DNA of 22,495 nucleotides from a virus. The stretch covers positions 1 through 22,495 of IMG/VR virus record IMGVR_UViG_3300021343_000074. One strand, given 5' to 3'. Below are positions 4,159 to 21,143 of this stretch, piece by piece; the stretch's first letter is position 1; each line of letters begins with the position of its first letter. The position numbers and the translations under genes are program-made. Below the pieces are notes generated by a model, which saw only the letters and a program-made list of their open reading frames with translations, was not told the origin of the DNA and made no database searches.

Positions 4159-4394
4159 ATCGCCTGCCTCTTGAGCGCGGGCGGTATTTCGGGTGCTTGC
4201 TCAACCAGGCCCATCTTGCGCAGAATCTGCGCGTGGTCGTCGAGCAGTGCGCGGATACCTGGCTGGTCGCTGCCGGCCTCAATGGCGTCGTCCAGCACTT
4301 CCTGCAGCTCCTGCGCGGCATAGCTAGACCATTGCTCCAGCGCTTGTAGCTGTTCGTGTAAACCGGTGATTTCCTGTTTCATTAAAGAGTCCAT
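4155..4394 (-). CDS. Hypothetical helical protein coupled to the methyltransferase, 79 aa
   Basis: A predicted all-helical soluble protein: an N-terminal helix (ITGLHEQLQALEQWSSYAAQ), then ELQEVLDDAIEA, a loop, and a helix LLDDHAQILRKMGLVEQ with a proline-containing tail. The start is ATG at 4394, which overlaps the methyltransferase stop in TAATG and has GGAGG 7 nt upstream. The longer in-frame version reaches back into the methyltransferase gene and is not needed. The coupling suggests it is made together with the methyltransferase. No family is recognised. Confidence 0.65.
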   Translation of the reverse strand: MDSLMKQEITGLHEQLQALEQWSSYAAQELQEVLDDAIEAGSDQPGIRALLDDHAQILRKMGLVEQAPEIPPALKRQAI

Positions 4395-5764
4395 TAGGCG
4401 GCCTCCTGTGCTGTGGCTTCGAGATTGAGCAAGTTGGCTTTTACCAGCGCTGCAGCGATAGGCGGGCAAACGGAGTTACCGCACTTCGCTACTTGCTGGG
4501 TTTTGGTGATTCGATTGCCTTTGGCGTCACGGTTAATGACGTAGTTATCGGGAAAGCCTTGGGCGGCAAATAGCTCATGGGGTTCCAGCATGCGCATACC
4601 AATATCTACTATCTGGTAAGGCTCGCCTTTGACCATAACCAAGCCCATACGGGCCTTGGTAGGCAAGGTGTGCATGGGCTCGTTTAAGTCCTGCCATTGC
4701 CCTCCAGTGCTGTAATATTTCATAAGGAAGGCCCGCACTTCGCCTACGTGTCCACCACCTGCAGTCAGAGTTGGTAGTGGTGTTTCTACACCCTGCCCAA
4801 ACTGGTCGTTGCGTAATTTAATCAAGTGACTGGTGACAACCTGATTTTGAGTCCCGCGAGTGGTCACGGTTGGCCAGGGCTGATCAATGGGTGTGCCTGT
4901 TACACCACCAAAGTGTTTGGCCAAAAACGCCGCGCAGAGCGCAGCTCGATTTTCCGCACCCTGATCTATGTTAACGATAAAGGGTTTGGGGTTTTCGATC
5001 ACAAACCGTTGGATACCATTCGCTATACGACGTTGAGTGTTTTCCGCCAAAGGTTTTTTCCGCTCGAATATGCTGGGGCAGGGAATCGACCAGTCGATAA
5101 TATCGGCGGCGGTTTTATAGGGTTTCAGGCCCGGGCCGTGGGTAGGTTGGGGCCATACGATCGGATGGTTGTCGCATCGCGCAATCAAGAATAGGCGCTT
5201 GCGGATTGTGGGGGCGCCATAGTCGCAGGCGCGCAGCTCCTTGGTTTCCACCCGATAGCCGTGGCGCTTGATCGCGTTAATAAAGGCCTGAAAGGTTTGC
5301 CCCTTGCGATTGGGGCACGGCCGGTGGTTATCACCGTCTTTGATCAGGGGGCCCCAGGTTTTGAATTCCTCGACATTTTCCAAAATGATGACTCGCGGAC
5401 GCACAGTGCCAATCCAGCGCATCACCACCCATGCCAGGCCTCGCACCCGGGGGCTGACTGGTGCGCCCCCCTTGGCCTTGGAAAAGTGCCGGCAGTCCGG
5501 AGAGAACCAGGCAAGGCCCACAGGGCGACCGTCGCAAACTGCTCGAGGATCAACATCCCAGACGCTCTCGCAGTAGTGCTGGGTCTGTGGATGGTTGACG
5601 GTATGCATGGATATAGCTTGTTGGTCGTGATTAATGGCGATATCAACTGAGCGGTCCAGCGCCGCTTCAATGCCTGTGCTCGCACCGCCACCACCGGCGA
5701 AGTTGTCGACAATCAGCTCCCGTTGAAAATCAAGCTGGTATTGTGGCGAAGTCCTGTAGTGCAT
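4394..5764 (-). CDS. DNA (cytosine-5) methyltransferase, phage orphan type
   Basis: Transfers a methyl group from SAM to cytosine C5 in a specific DNA sequence, most likely to protect phage DNA from host restriction. Numbered from ATG 5764 (456 aa): motif I DNFAGGGGAS (residues 20-29), motif IV SPDCRHFS with nucleophile C91, motif VI ENVEE (129-133), motif VIII TIRKRLFLIA (186-195), a target-recognition region after about 230, and the C-terminal motifs GFPDNY and CGNSVCPP. Motif IV has PDC where classical enzymes have PPC. An in-frame TTG at 5821 would extend it but has no ribosome-binding site, and the 24-aa frame at 5781-5855 occupies that region; ATG 5764 has AGG 8 nt upstream. No restriction partner is seen. 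The target sequence cannot be read from the protein. Confidence 0.92.
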   Translation of the reverse strand: MHYRTSPQYQLDFQRELIVDNFAGGGGASTGIEAALDRSVDIAINHDQQAISMHTVNHPQTQHYCESVWDVDPRAVCDGRPVGLAWFSPDCRHFSKAKGGAPVSPRVRGLAWVVMRWIGTVRPRVIILENVEEFKTWGPLIKDGDNHRPCPNRKGQTFQAFINAIKRHGYRVETKELRACDYGAPTIRKRLFLIARCDNHPIVWPQPTHGPGLKPYKTAADIIDWSIPCPSIFERKKPLAENTQRRIANGIQRFVIENPKPFIVNIDQGAENRAALCAAFLAKHFGGVTGTPIDQPWPTVTTRGTQNQVVTSHLIKLRNDQFGQGVETPLPTLTAGGGHVGEVRAFLMKYYSTGGQWQDLNEPMHTLPTKARMGLVMVKGEPYQIVDIGMRMLEPHELFAAQGFPDNYVINRDAKGNRITKTQQVAKCGNSVCPPIAAALVKANLLNLEATAQEAA

Positions 5765-5780
5765 GCTGAATGCCTGGTAA

Positions 5781-5855
5781 TCAGTCGTTTTTGTTAATGG
5801 TTGATGCAATGTAGATGGCAATTAGTGCGGCAATGGTCAGAGCGGCGGTTTCCAT
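5781..5855 (-). CDS. Possible 24-aa hydrophobic leader or microprotein
   Basis: A very short frame just upstream of the methyltransferase gene. It has an excellent start signal (AAGGA, 7 nt before ATG 5855) placed directly behind an intrinsic terminator. The peptide has a hydrophobic core of about 16 residues (LTIAALIAIYIAS) between METAA and a polar end TINKND, so it could span the membrane once. It ends 16 bp before the methyltransferase ATG. It may be a real phage membrane microprotein, a leader peptide that controls the gene downstream, or chance; the strong ribosome-binding site argues against chance. Confidence 0.45.
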   Translation of the reverse strand: METAALTIAALIAIYIASTINKND

Positions 5856-7789: not shown

Positions 7790-8023
7790 TTATGCCGTTA
7801 CCGCCATGGCAAAGCTTTGAGTCGTGTAGGTATTGGCAGCCTGTGCCATGCCGTCAACGCACTCGGTTAACAGTGCCACCTGCTCGCGGGTGGAGTTGAG
7901 CTGTTCCCGGGTGAATCTGAGCTCTTGGCACGTGTTGTCCAGCGTTTGCTCTAACTCATAATTTTTGTCTTTTAAGTCAGCGATGATGTCCATCAAGTCA
8001 CTGAAGCTTGGATTCGTGTTCAT
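7790..8023 (-). CDS. Small coiled-coil protein, 77 aa
   Basis: A predicted long helix or coiled coil: DLMDIIADLKDKNYELEQTL, then CQELRFTREQLNSTREQVAL, with a polar C-terminus ending MAVTA. No enzyme motif is visible. The start is ATG at 8023 with GGGGGA 5 nt upstream; it overlaps the end of the diphosphohydrolase gene by 26 bp in another frame, and its stop is 2 bp from the KilAC start. Tight packing with both neighbours argues for a real gene in the leftward operon. The function is unknown. Confidence 0.65.
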   Translation of the reverse strand: MNTNPSFSDLMDIIADLKDKNYELEQTLDNTCQELRFTREQLNSTREQVALLTECVDGMAQAANTYTTQSFAMAVTA

Positions 8024-8528
8024 CGGTTTCCCCCAACTCCTTTTCCAGCAGAAAGAGCAGGCAGCAAATGGCATGAGCCAAGTGATGCAGGCCGCTTTCC
8101 GGATCCCGTTTTTCGCCTTTGAACCAGGCAATGGTGTGACGCAGGGCGGCGGCAAAATAGCGCCGGCGGCTGTTGTCGACCTGGCGCCAGTTCTCCGGGC
8201 CGTATTTGTCGGCACCGAAGGTTAGCACCTCGACCACTTCCCCCTGCGCAGCCCAGGGCACAAGGTCCCATTGGGGCTTGCCCTGATCGTGTTTTTTTCC
8301 TGGGGATGTCGTTTCGTGCGCATCTTTGTCAAAATCGTCAAAGGCAAGCGGGTATTCGTCTTCGTCGGAGAGTTCTATGGATGGCCGGCTTTTCCAGCTT
8401 TCAAATGATTCACCGGTATCGCGGTCGTGGCCGCATTCAGGGCAGGTGACGAATTCATTGCCGTTTCGAGCCAAGGGCCCCCTCTCTGGCTGGCATGCTT
8501 GGCAATGTGCGCATATTAGACTGCTCAC
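7998..8528 (-). CDS. MazG-like dATP/dGTP diphosphohydrolase (DUF5664) with N-terminal zinc ribbon
   Basis: The C-terminal 100 residues match the DUF5664/dATP-dGTP diphosphohydrolase N-domain family, a MazG-like all-helical fold: KHDQGKPQWDLVPW (79-92), EVVEVLTFGADKYGPENW (97-114), RRYFAAALRHTIAWFKGE (122-139), DPESGLHHLAHAICCLLFLL (142-161). Such enzymes cut dNTPs to dNMPs and are used by some phages to shape the nucleotide pool. The first 50 residues add a zinc ribbon (C6/C9 with C12 nearby, and C29/C32) followed by FESWKSRPS, reminiscent of Lar/Com-type fingers. The start is GTG at 8528 with a strong GGAGGTG 7 nt upstream, overlapping the stop of the gene before it in GTGA. No PurZ is seen, so a modified-base pathway is not supported here. 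Confidence 0.82.
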   Translation of the reverse strand: MSSLICAHCQACQPERGPLARNGNEFVTCPECGHDRDTGESFESWKSRPSIELSDEDEYPLAFDDFDKDAHETTSPGKKHDQGKPQWDLVPWAAQGEVVEVLTFGADKYGPENWRQVDNSRRRYFAAALRHTIAWFKGEKRDPESGLHHLAHAICCLLFLLEKELGETDEHESKLQ

Positions 8529-8716: not shown

Positions 8717-8728
8717 TTGCTTGCTCCA

Positions 8729-8788
8729 ACAGATATATTTGTTGATAAATATACACATATATTTGTATTAATCAACAGTTATATTTGT
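8729..8788. promoter_or_regulatory. Left operator: three repressor-binding repeats
   Basis: Three 14-bp near-palindromes with 24 and 22 bp between their starts: ACAGATATATTTGT (8729-8742), ACACATATATTTGT (8753-8766) and ACAGTTATATTTGT (8775-8788). They cover the start point, spacer and -35 edge of the leftward promoter. The first is identical to the third site of the right operator, as expected for CI-type control. Confidence 0.85.
8748..8775 (-). promoter_or_regulatory. Leftward early promoter (PL-like)
   Basis: On the minus strand, TTGATT (8775-8770) and TATATT (8753-8748) are separated by 16 bp. The predicted transcript starts near 8741, about 25 nt before the first gene's GTG. All elements lie within or beside the three operator repeats, so repressor binding would shut it off. 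Confidence 0.7.
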
Positions 8789-8964
8789 TTTTACGGCGGG
8801 GTGGCGATTGGTAATATGTAGTCTCGGCGGCAACTTCTTGATTTTATTGGATAAGGGAAGTGCGATTAGGGGTTTCCTTGCACGCTATCGATAAGTGTTC
8901 TCGGCAACTTCAATGAGCTTTGTGGTTAATTTGAATATTATTTAACAGCTAAAAGGGATGTTCT

Positions 8965-9519
8965 ATGGATATTGATGAACTTAAGAAGCAATGGAAGCCG
9001 CGTCCGAAGCGAACTCAACGACTCTTGGTTAAGCATATCGATGGCTGGAAGCGCGAGATGGATACCAGTGATTGGGCATTTCCTATCGGTTACGCGTTTA
9101 GAGATGCGCTTGATATAAAGCTCACTGAGCGAGTTAAAACTCTTGTCAATGAAGAGACAGGCGAAAAGATTTTAGATCCTGAAGGGAAGCCCAAAAAGAC
9201 TGTGGTCAAAAATTGGACACAAGGGCCAATCATTGCTTTCAAAGAAGGTGATGCCATTTATAACACGGATCAAAGCATAGTAATTCAGGTTGGTGAGCTT
9301 TCCGTTGCGATGGGTTGGGATAAGGCAGCAGGGTTCATGTACCAAGGACGGGTCAATTATACGGTCTATAAAAAAGGAACCGGGGTGTCTAGCGAAGGAA
9401 TTTATCAACCATTTTATCAATATCATTGCTCTCAGATGAGCTTTTTGAGGCAGCTTATACACGGCTTGGCCATTCCGAATGAAGTCCTTCAGGAAGCTAA
9501 ACCAATAGTGGCTATATAG
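8965..9519 (+). CDS. Unknown protein in the immunity region, 184 aa
   Basis: I do not recognise a family. The protein is soluble, with a basic N-terminal region (KKQWKPRPKRTQRLLVKHID), an insert rich in Glu/Lys/Pro around residues 58-75, and a beta-rich C-terminal half (GPIIAFKEGDAIYNTDQSIV, then NYTVYKKGTGV). No membrane helix or signal peptide is seen. The start is ATG at 8965 with AAGGG 7 nt upstream. It lies on the plus strand between the left operator and the repressor gene, opposite to both repressor and left operon, so it needs its own promoter; I see no convincing one in 8789-8964, only a 10-bp direct repeat CGGCAACTTC (8828-8837, 8902-8911). The region is AT-rich compared with the phage. 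Placement suggests expression in the lysogen: a moron, perhaps exclusion or defence. Confidence 0.7.
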   Translation: MDIDELKKQWKPRPKRTQRLLVKHIDGWKREMDTSDWAFPIGYAFRDALDIKLTERVKTLVNEETGEKILDPEGKPKKTVVKNWTQGPIIAFKEGDAIYNTDQSIVIQVGELSVAMGWDKAAGFMYQGRVNYTVYKKGTGVSSEGIYQPFYQYHCSQMSFLRQLIHGLAIPNEVLQEAKPIVAI

Positions 9520-9548
9520 TCAATTGCACTGGGAAAGGGGGTAGTTTC

Positions 9549-9890
9549 ATGGAGCCGCAAGAGATAAAATTTGAAGTGCAGGGCTCTTCGCCAACACCGT
9601 ATGTTGTAACCTTTGTAAGGCGTTCAATAAGAAATCTGTCTGCTTACTGTACTTGCCCTGCAGGAGATAAAGGGCAATATTGTAAGCATAGATTCAATAT
9701 TCTTGATGGTGAGATAGATGCGATCGTTAGCAATAATCTACAAGATATTAAGCTAGTGCAATCTTGGTTGCCGGGAAGTGATATTGAAGAGGCGATAAAG
9801 AATTTACGCGATCTAGAATTGGCGGCCGCCAATATTAAAAAGCAACTTACGGCTGCAAAGAAATACGTTGCAAAAGTAATGCGTGATTAG
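9549..9890 (+). CDS. SWIM zinc-finger protein in the immunity region, 113 aa
   Basis: A SWIM-type zinc finger is plain: C34-x-C36, eight residues, C45-x-H47 (YCTCPAGDKGQYCKH). SWIM fingers bind DNA or proteins and are found in MuDR transposases, SWI/SNF-type ATPases and some small bacterial proteins. Before it lies a beta-rich segment (KFEVQGSSPTPYVVTFVRRS); after it come helices (SDIEEAIKNLRDLELAAANI and a lysine-rich end). The start is ATG at 9549 with a GGGGG ribosome-binding site 7 nt upstream. It follows the 184-aa gene by 29 bp on the same strand and probably shares its transcript. It ends 10 bp from the repressor stop, tail to tail. GC is low (21 of 60 bases at 9661-9720). The role is unknown. 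Confidence 0.75.
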   Translation: MEPQEIKFEVQGSSPTPYVVTFVRRSIRNLSAYCTCPAGDKGQYCKHRFNILDGEIDAIVSNNLQDIKLVQSWLPGSDIEEAIKNLRDLELAAANIKKQLTAAKKYVAKVMRD

Positions 9891-9900
9891 TCTGTCGGCG

Positions 9901-10527
9901 TTAAAACATTTCCAATTTGCAGATGATCACCCCGCAAATATGCCATTCCTCATCCATTTTTATAATGCGGTTAGGCCACTCGGGGTTGAGGGCTTTTAAA
10001 TAATGTTGCCCGCCGTCAGTCATTAGTTGCTTAAATGTGACGCTTTTGTCCCCGGTTTTCTGAGCGATAACATAGCTTCCTGAGTTTGGCGACTTCATGG
10101 GGTCTACAATAATTAGCTCTCCCTCAGTGAACTTGGGCTCCATGCTGGCGCCTTGCACTTTAAGTGCGAACGATGAGTCAGAGTGCTGTGTGGGGCATGG
10201 TATCCAGTCGTCTGCATCCCCTGGCTGAAATAAGTCAATAGCTTCACAGAATTCCCCGGCCTGAACCCATGAAATTAAGGGTACGCGCCCTTGAATTTCC
10301 GGGCCTGGCGCGATGTTATCGGGTTCTCTTGGGCCTTCGCCGGATGAGAGCCAGCGTGTGTTTACACCGAGGATGTTGGCAAATTTGTCGCTATGAATAG
10401 ATCCACGTCCCTTTCCTGCGCAGAGATATTGCACGGACTGCTGTGAAATGCCAGCCTGTCGCGCCAACTCTGCCTGGCTCATGCCCGCACTTTTGAGGGC
10501 CGATTTAAGTCGCTCACCGTAATCCAT
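9901..10527 (-). CDS. CI/LexA-like lysogeny repressor (S24 peptidase)
   Basis: A 208-aa repressor. Residues 1-60 form an HTH DNA-binding domain (GMSQAELARQAGISQQSVQY, then CAGKGRGSIHSDKFANILGV). The C-terminal half is an S24 autocleavage domain: cleavage site A90-G91 in WVQAGEF, nucleophile S128 in QGASMEP, and general base K166 in SVTFKQL. RecA-stimulated self-cleavage would induce the prophage after DNA damage. The start is ATG at 10527, directly after GGAGGGGTT; an upstream in-frame start lies in the operator. It is divergent from the YdaS/Cro-like gene across three operator repeats. No clear maintenance promoter could be placed by eye. It converges on the SWIM gene. Confidence 0.93.
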   Translation of the reverse strand: MDYGERLKSALKSAGMSQAELARQAGISQQSVQYLCAGKGRGSIHSDKFANILGVNTRWLSSGEGPREPDNIAPGPEIQGRVPLISWVQAGEFCEAIDLFQPGDADDWIPCPTQHSDSSFALKVQGASMEPKFTEGELIIVDPMKSPNSGSYVIAQKTGDKSVTFKQLMTDGGQHYLKALNPEWPNRIIKMDEEWHICGVIICKLEMF

Positions 10528-10556
10528 AACCCCTCCGCTAGATTCGAGCTCATAAT

Positions 10557-10619
10557 ACAAAAACTTCTGTTGCCAATCTCGACATAAATATCTGTTGACT
10601 TAAATACAGATATATTTGT
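10557..10619. promoter_or_regulatory. Right operator: three repressor-binding repeats
   Basis: Three 14-bp sites with 25 and 24 bp between their starts: ACAAAAACTTCTGT (10557-10570), ACATAAATATCTGT (10582-10595) and ACAGATATATTTGT (10606-10619). The consensus ACA-n-A-n4-TTTGT or its complement is shared with the left operator; the last site is identical to 8729-8742. The first is the most divergent and is nearest the repressor gene. Confidence 0.82.
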
Positions 10620-10624: not shown

Positions 10625-10656
10625 TGTAAAGGTTGTATTTATTAATAGGCAGAAAG

Positions 10657-10908
10657 ATGACTGGTTCTCAAAAAGAAACTGTGGCCGAAATCACCGAACG
10701 GGTAATTGAAGTGCTCGGAGGGCAGGCGGCAACGGCTAGGATCGCTGAGTGCAGTCAACAAACGGTTGGCTATTGGCTGCAAAAAAAGAGAGCAATCCCC
10801 GCTGAGTACGTGTTGAAAATAGAGGCAGCCTTGTTTGAAAGAGGTGTGCCCATCTCTCGTTATCAGATTCGTCCGGATGTGTATGGTAGCGCAGCTGAAA
10901 GCGAATAG
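10657..10908 (+). CDS. YdaS/Cro-like helix-turn-helix protein
   Basis: An 83-aa protein at the cro position. The segment IEVLGGQAATARIAECSQQTVGYWLQKKRAIPAEYVLKIEAA is a YdaS-type HTH: a helix, the recognition helix (SQQTVGYWLQ) and the conserved RAIPAEYVLKIE. Family members act as Cro-like repressors of the lysogeny gene. The start is ATG at 10657, with AGG 7 nt upstream; a TTG eight codons earlier is too close to the predicted transcription start. It is read from the rightward promoter. Confidence 0.82.
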   Translation: MTGSQKETVAEITERVIEVLGGQAATARIAECSQQTVGYWLQKKRAIPAEYVLKIEAALFERGVPISRYQIRPDVYGSAAESE

Positions 10909-19527: not shown

Positions 19528-21143
19528 TGCGTGCACAGGTTAAACAGATCGAGGCACCGGTGCTGGTCGACGTGCGCGGCAATCCTCTGAGTAAGGGTGC
19601 CAGTTACGACGCCGGTGACCGGCTGACGCGTGAGCTCGCGACCTGGACGCCGCGCTCGGTCTCTGGGGATGCGGCGGTGTTGCCGGGGCGTGAGCGTTTA
19701 AGCAGCCGTGCTTCCGATATCTCTCGCAATAATGGCTATGCACAAAGCGGCGTTCAGCTACACGTGGATGCGATTGTCGGTAATCACTTCAAGCTTAGCT
19801 ACAAGCCCAATTGTCGGGTTCTGGGATTAGATCCGGAGAGCGAGGCGGTGACCGACTTCATTCAGGACGTGGAGGCGGCTTTTACCGATTACGCGGAGAA
19901 TCCCGAGTGTCTGATCGATGCGGAGGGCAAGCGGACGTTTACCATGTTGGTCCGTGCTGGCGTGCACTGTCACGTGCGGACCGGCGAGATTTTCTCTTCG
20001 GCGGAGTGGATTCGGCGGTCTGGACTTCGCACGGCAATCAAGGTGGTTCACCCTGATCGGATCAGCAACCCCAATGGACTGCGCGATAGTGCACGGCTCC
20101 GTGGTGGGATTGACTTGGGGCATTACGGGGAGGCGATTGGCTATCACCTGCGTACCGCGCATGCCAGCGACGCGGGCTTTGGGGTAAATACCCACAAGTG
20201 GCGATTCATCCGCAAGCAAACCCGCTGGGGACGTGCCCAGATGATTCATGTGTTCGATCCAACCGAAGACGGGCAGAGTCGCGGCAATAGTGGTTTTGCG
20301 TCAGTGCTCAAACGGTTGAAAATGCTGGACAAGTACCAGGATGTAGTGCTGCAAAACGCCGTGGTCAACGCCATGTATGCCATGGTGATCGAATCGGAGT
20401 TTGATCAAGCTACGGCACTTGAAGCCATCGGGGCCAGTGCTGCAGGTGATGACAGCAGCTTGCTGGGGCTTTTGGGCGCCATAAACGCCTATTATGAGGG
20501 GGCCAATGTTACCTTCGATGGTGTAAAGATTCCTCACCTGTTCCCGGGTGAAAAGCTCAACATGCAGACGGCCAAGTCGCCGATTGGCGTAGAGCACTAC
20601 GAACAGCAGTTGCTGCGTTACGTCGCGGCAGGGCTCAACGTCAGCTATGAGCAGCTGAGCAAGGATTACAGCAACACCAACTATTCCAGTGCCCGCGCGG
20701 CCATGCTGGAGACCTGGCGATACTTTTCGGGGCAGCGATCCGTCATTGCTAAGCGCTATGCCTCCATGATTTTTGCGCTGGTGCTCGAGGAAATGATTGA
20801 CCGGCGGGTTGTAGTTCTCCCGGCGGGCGCACCGAGCTTTTACGATGCGAAGTCGGCCTGGTGTAACTGTGATTGGATTGCCGCTGGCATGACACATATC
20901 GATGGCCTCAAAGAGGCTAAACGATTGGTGCTGTTGCTTGAGGCGGGGCTGATTACCGAGGAAACTGCGCACGCAGAGTTGGGTCAGGATTATCAGGCGG
21001 TATTCGATCAGTTAATGCGCGAGCAGCGTGATAGAGAGAAGCGCGGTATGCCGCCACCGCTGTGGCGGCAGGAAGCAAAAATGTCTACCAGTGCTGCGTA
21101 TCAAGAGGCGCCTGCGGTCAATACCAATGCGCAGTCCAGTTAA
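19527..21143 (+). CDS. Portal protein, lambda family
   Basis: A 538-aa portal of the lambda gpB family (lambda gpB is 533 aa). Recognisable stretches are LSSRASDISRNNGYAQSGVQ, then HVDAIVGNHFKLSYKPN, HVRTGEIFSSAEWI, KVVHPDRISNPNG, MIHVFDPTEDGQSRGNSGFA, and QLLRYVAAGLNVSYEQLSKD followed by YSNTNYSSARAAMLE. Twelve copies would form the ring through which DNA enters the capsid. It is translationally coupled to gpW by a 1-bp stop/start overlap. The polar C-terminal tail after the WRQE segment is variable in the family. Confidence 0.93.
   Translation: MRAQVKQIEAPVLVDVRGNPLSKGASYDAGDRLTRELATWTPRSVSGDAAVLPGRERLSSRASDISRNNGYAQSGVQLHVDAIVGNHFKLSYKPNCRVLGLDPESEAVTDFIQDVEAAFTDYAENPECLIDAEGKRTFTMLVRAGVHCHVRTGEIFSSAEWIRRSGLRTAIKVVHPDRISNPNGLRDSARLRGGIDLGHYGEAIGYHLRTAHASDAGFGVNTHKWRFIRKQTRWGRAQMIHVFDPTEDGQSRGNSGFASVLKRLKMLDKYQDVVLQNAVVNAMYAMVIESEFDQATALEAIGASAAGDDSSLLGLLGAINAYYEGANVTFDGVKIPHLFPGEKLNMQTAKSPIGVEHYEQQLLRYVAAGLNVSYEQLSKDYSNTNYSSARAAMLETWRYFSGQRSVIAKRYASMIFALVLEEMIDRRVVVLPAGAPSFYDAKSAWCNCDWIAAGMTHIDGLKEAKRLVLLLEAGLITEETAHAELGQDYQAVFDQLMREQRDREKRGMPPPLWRQEAKMSTSAAYQEAPAVNTNAQSS

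Follow-up and report, generated by a model that had tools for sequence, protein, structure and literature searches.

In a temperate phage, what is the role of two short genes flanked by the left operators on one side and the repressor on the other, and could they exclude other phages, as a sequence-only reading of this DNA had proposed? The window, that is, the whole stretch of DNA analyzed, comprises the 22,495 bases of a virus record and carries genes for an integrase, a DNA methyltransferase, a CII-like activator, a primase, a terminase, and a portal protein; given this gene content, the phage is a temperate one and the pair lies in its immunity region. The features of this stretch are listed below.

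8727-8789, unstranded: left operator cluster OL, with 14-bp near-palindromes (ACAnnTATATTTGT-like sites) at 8729-8742, 8753-8766, and 8775-8788
8965-9519, plus strand: P1, 184 aa, ATG start
9549-9890, plus strand: SWIM zinc-finger protein, 113 aa, ATG start
9901-10560, minus strand: HTH and S24-peptidase (LexA/CI-like) prophage repressor (Peptidase_S24, 2.9e-26; HTH_3, 2e-7)
10582-10619, unstranded: right operator sites in the interval between the repressor and the cro-like gene, matching the OL sites and starting at 10582 and 10606
10633-10908, plus strand: Cro-like/YdaS-family regulator (YdaS_toxin, 5.4e-16)

As seen, the left operators and the S24 repressor enclose an interval occupied by two intact plus-strand ORFs, P1 and SWIM, with the coordinates and lengths previously claimed for them. 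The two genes are spaced 29 bp apart, and the SWIM gene ends 10 bp from the end of the repressor gene. Shine-Dalgarno-like sequences, AAAAGGGA and GGGAAAGGGGG, precede the P1 and SWIM starts, respectively, in keeping with the ribosome-binding sites noted earlier. The G/C counts from which a deviant composition had been argued (21 of 60 at 9661-9720 and 38 of 60 at 19561-19620) were exact. With GC contents of 0.438 for P1 and 0.406 for the SWIM gene (GC3, 0.43 and 0.35), the pair are the two lowest-GC ORFs among the 25 window ORFs of at least 90 aa, and equally AT-rich 926-base stretches make up only 2.6% of the window. A promoter search of the window region found no sigma-70 consensus promoter for the pair, and no Rfam RNAs were found in the region. 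The possibility that P1 and SWIM are chance ORFs was ruled out by their homologues and by purifying selection.

The left operator described by the sequence-only reading was confirmed: the operator motif has 11 matches in the window against 1.05 expected, and none of 100 shuffles contained as many. The OL sites overlap a minus-strand PL-like promoter. Their spacing is 24 and 22 bases, and the presence of three sites on the left and two on the right is as in a two-operator lambdoid switch. The pair had been described as facing both the repressor and the left operon; it is indeed convergent with the repressor but divergent from the left operon. Among the minus-strand genes of that operon, the protein encoded at 7998-8528 has a zinc-ribbon-like start and matches a phage dATP/dGTP pyrophosphohydrolase family (phrog_801, 3.9e-42), and a 475-aa DNA methyltransferase (4394-5821; phrog_116, 1.3e-98) is possibly an anti-restriction protein.

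The assignment of the second gene as a SWIM zinc-finger protein held, with a PF04434 score of 22.3 bits against a Pfam cutoff of 19.6. The zinc-ligand motif CxCx8CxH, which it shares with other PF04434 proteins, lies at residues 34 to 47 and is followed by a conserved C-terminal region; residues C34, C36, C45, and H47 are invariant across seven homologues. Unlike other PF04434 proteins, the window type forms a small 113-aa subfamily defined by this C-terminal region and by its link to P1, and members are found alone in some bacteria. In PADLOC, the protein gave weak matches of about 45 residues to PDC-S62 (1.4e-5, in the SWIM-containing part) and DpdE (0.026).

P1 has no family match in Pfam, NCBIfam, or PADLOC. 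Among PHROGs, it strongly matches phrog_31886 alone and, more weakly, phrog_36782; both are of unknown function. A 22-row alignment revealed the signature FRDALDI...WTQGP...F.EGD...Q..F, with W37, F45, L49, W84, F92, G128, Q157, and F160 invariant. The AlphaFold model (pLDDT, 91.3; pTM, 0.83) predicts an all-beta protein with a C-terminal helix. Foldseek against PDB returned nothing at an E value of 0.001 or less for this model, and the top VIA-align hit, a beta-propeller-like blade aligned over 44 residues at a Z score of 5.0, is not a usable match; PDB sequence profiles likewise contained no relative of either protein of the pair. The single confident BFVD match, a 168-aa protein of an "uncultured Caudovirales phage," is apparently P1's own relative LR797314. 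Because the model has no usable PDB match, no enzymatic function can be proposed for P1, and the missing match does not prove that the predicted fold is new.

Profile searches, with near-identical contigs and the Pseudoalteromonas group merged, identified 27 distinct P1 lineages. Alignment-based queries were needed for this: in a viral-contig scan for close relatives, the P1 query alone found none and the SWIM query alone found only locus L004, and one genome-collection scan yielded just four loci. A recognized partner was present in 24 of 26 informative lineages; L018 and L029 have none, and the L019 contig ends at P1. The partners were distributed as follows.

SWIM adjacent to P1, in either order: window, L004, L015, L016, L026, L027, L028, L061, L077, L078
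SWIM fused to P1: Burkholderia stagnalis plasmid protein, L040
GapS2 (4 of 27 lineages): L017, L055, L075, L082
Other BRCT protein (4 of 27): L014, L058/L076, L025 (fused), L059 (fused)
WYL-like protein (4 of 27): Pseudoalteromonas (PY3) group (fused), L057, L064, L089 (fused)

Whether the pair travels together in other immunity regions, a question left by the sequence-only reading, can be answered in the affirmative, as SWIM is adjacent or fused to P1 in 12 of the 27 lineages. Start and stop codons of the two genes share a 4-bp ATGA overlap in L015, L077, and L004, and such overlaps occur in both gene orders. In L016, a syntenic phage, the left operon and repressor are the same as in the window but the SWIM/P1 order is reversed; in L078, P1 accompanies a clearly different SWIM protein next to an HTH repressor and a serine recombinase. 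The BRCT partners match LigA BRCT regions and the exonuclease-BRCT model PRK06195. BRCT and P1 are two genes in L014 and L076 and a fusion in L025 (blast, 4e-36); the BRCT part of L059 was assigned by eye, outside profile support, as was the TerB-like label. WYL-like partners and P1 are two genes in L057 and L064 and a single protein in the PY3 group and L089. Their WYL-like N terminus is a weak profile match (E value of about 0.001) and the AlphaFold model of the partner is of low pLDDT (43.7), so the WYL label relies on weak profile matches. Values of dN/dS of 0.07 to 0.10 in the fused group indicate purifying selection. Module genes are rare, occurring in about 1 to 2% of genomes, and this rarity, together with their mobile context, rules out a housekeeping role. 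Judged by these sequence comparisons, P1-SWIM is a real, selected unit, and SWIM is merely one of several interchangeable partners of the constant domain P1, which goes beyond the earlier reading.

One of these partners, GapS2, is defined by NCBIfam model NF047932 and annotated as "anti-phage protein." GAPS2 reportedly originates in gamma-mobile-trio elements, where GapS2 is said to be experimentally anti-phage. The gene directly after P1 in L017 matches the model at 2.1e-94, slightly below the curated cutoff, and those directly after P1 in L055 (339.6 bits) and L082 (365 bits) exceed it; in L075, GapS2 also directly follows P1. P1 therefore lies directly upstream in four of seven distinct GapS2 loci, the others being L056/L080, L083, and L084, with an eighth, partial match (L085) excluded from the count. 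Among 227 genomes of one family, P1 was found in four, GapS2 in five, and both in two, adjacent in each case; the chance of the two sharing 2 of 227 genomes is 0.0023. GapS2 shares the mobile and immunity-region setting of the pair, and in L084 it lies directly behind an S24 repressor. In contrast, the partner of P1 in the window, a SWIM protein, lacks a BRCT domain, and neither window protein matches NF047932. As GapS2 accompanies only 4 of 27 lineages and BRCT is unrelated to SWIM, defence can be transferred to the window pair only by analogy. Other defence-like genes near P1 include RelA_SpoT-domain genes matching the candidate defence model PDC-S33 at two unrelated loci (L015:1721-2749 and L058:3064-4146), a TIR-effector-like gene (L004), and a putative AbiC gene, putAbiC (L024). 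On the question of neighboring defence genes, raised by the sequence-only reading, some relatives have GapS2-family partners or defence-like neighbors, but the pair itself has no PADLOC match, neither gene satisfying any system model of PADLOC-DB 2.0.

Most P1-module loci are prophage immunity regions. P1 overlaps, or lies 4 bp behind, a co-directional CI gene in L025 and L029, and in L017 and L059 it is found after an S24 repressor; SWIM-P1 comes after an HTH regulator in L026 to L028. The module is convergent with an S24 repressor in the window, L016, L057, L064, and L089. In lambda, rexAB lies in the immunity region behind cI, in the orientation opposite to that of the window pair. The earlier remark that the pair lies where lambda carries rexAB therefore holds for the interval, with the refinement that the orientation is reversed, and searches of Pfam, PHROGs, NCBIfam, and PADLOC linked neither protein to Rex by sequence. 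The P1 loci behind a repressor or HTH regulator (L025, L029, L017, L059, and L026 to L028) do have the cI-rexA-rexB arrangement, which is also the repressor-then-pair arrangement of RexABpp, a RexAB-type system of Pseudomonas putida that has been tested (PMC12894663). RexAB and RexABpp likewise consist of two genes next to a CI-like repressor (PMC12894663), whereas the window pair is convergent with its repressor and shows no sign of a membrane protein like RexB. At the sequence level, the pair shows homology neither to RexAB nor to any PADLOC system. Given a location next to the repressor that is tandem in relatives but convergent in the window, it is no more than plausible that the lysogen expresses the pair.

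Taken together, these results incline us slightly toward reading P1-SWIM as a version of a modular two-component unit that is carried by prophages, would be expressed in the lysogen, and would exclude superinfecting phages (an anti-phage unit). Elsewhere, SWIM, BRCT, and WYL-like proteins attach to nucleic acid or to proteins bound to DNA. With P1 as the constant component and such binders as the varying one, the simplest model is a constant acting part that works with exchangeable recognition arms. In this model, the partner, swapped between lineages (SWIM, BRCT including GapS2, WYL-like, or TerB-like plus BRCT), would recognize some DNA structure, or a complex on DNA, that typifies an incoming replicating phage; through it, P1 would be brought into action and the incoming phage stopped, while the resident prophage would stay silent. 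We infer that recognition falls to the partner and action to P1; the roles may be the other way round, given that GapS2 is also found in loci lacking P1. The role of the module would probably be that of a resident virus keeping other viruses out, and by analogy we infer the same for the window pair itself. The link to defence is circumstantial, coming from GapS2, the defence-like neighbors, and the location. The candidate exclusion or defence cassette originally proposed is supported in part, by the unit itself, its immunity-region location, purifying selection in relatives, and relatives with GapS2 partners or defence-like neighbors; that it is unrelated in sequence to RexAB and PADLOC systems goes beyond that reading.

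The location next to S24 repressors, often co-directional and overlapping, would also be explained if partner and P1 acted on the repressor, the operators, or the host damage response to modulate the resident prophage's own switch. WYL domains elsewhere sense single-stranded DNA or damage and regulate transcription (PMC12340889, PMC10693628), and, according to work cited in PMC12894663, RexA of lambda additionally represses PRM, to which it binds. However, the repressors beside the module are of unrelated types (S24, CI HTH, and double HTH), the module is also found outside phages and beside integrase or recombinase genes, neither protein has an HTH domain, and some partners match an anti-phage model, making this explanation unlikely. 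WYL-domain defence and damage regulators (PMC4012209, PMC9122601) share a WYL-like N terminus with one type of P1 partner, but these partners lack the DNA-binding HTH and are absent from the window.

The matches of BRCT partners to LigA and PRK06195 bring to mind an accessory of DNA replication or repair, in which SWIM, BRCT, and WYL-like arms would dock P1 onto DNA ends, single-stranded DNA, or repair proteins to help the phage. We regard this as improbable, given that the genes are rare, lie in accessory slots with a repressor or integrase outside the replication operon, and are AT-rich, as is often the case with recently acquired cargo. A toxin-antitoxin pair that stabilizes the prophage or triggers abortive infection would fit two short, overlapping, mobile genes in either order, but the repeated fusions, the replacement of the partner by unrelated domains, the solo P1, SWIM, and GapS2 genes, and the lack of a match to any toxin-antitoxin family make it very improbable; the obligate separate toxin and antitoxin of type II systems are not what was found.

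Beyond the exclusion unit favored above, we tentatively entertain a broader possibility, in which P1 would be a new phage-borne defence family, with a fold absent from solved structures, that recruits sensor arms (SWIM, BRCT, and WYL-like), GAPS2 being in many genomes only its visible half. Most genes of prophage immunity regions are unnamed, and P1 now has a family, a confident structural model, and a searchable signature, and the logic of its partners connects it to the anti-phage annotation of GapS2. Two predictions follow: GapS2 would have in P1 a companion overlooked by single-gene models, and one machine would use SWIM, BRCT, and WYL-like proteins interchangeably as its arms.

Components of the module also occur alone, namely, GapS2 in L056, L083, and L084, SWIM in L043 and L045, and P1 in L029. 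In L060 (6175-6786), a SWIM gene without P1 directly follows an unnamed 203-aa gene without a Pfam match, which is possibly another partner of the SWIM protein. On a Rhizobium rhizoryzae plasmid (L006:4998-5666), a SWIM domain is fused with a stretch similar to the C-terminal portion of the WYL-like partner (5e-5) in a gene that adjoins an S24 repressor without P1, a fusion whose composition reads as further shuffling of the module.
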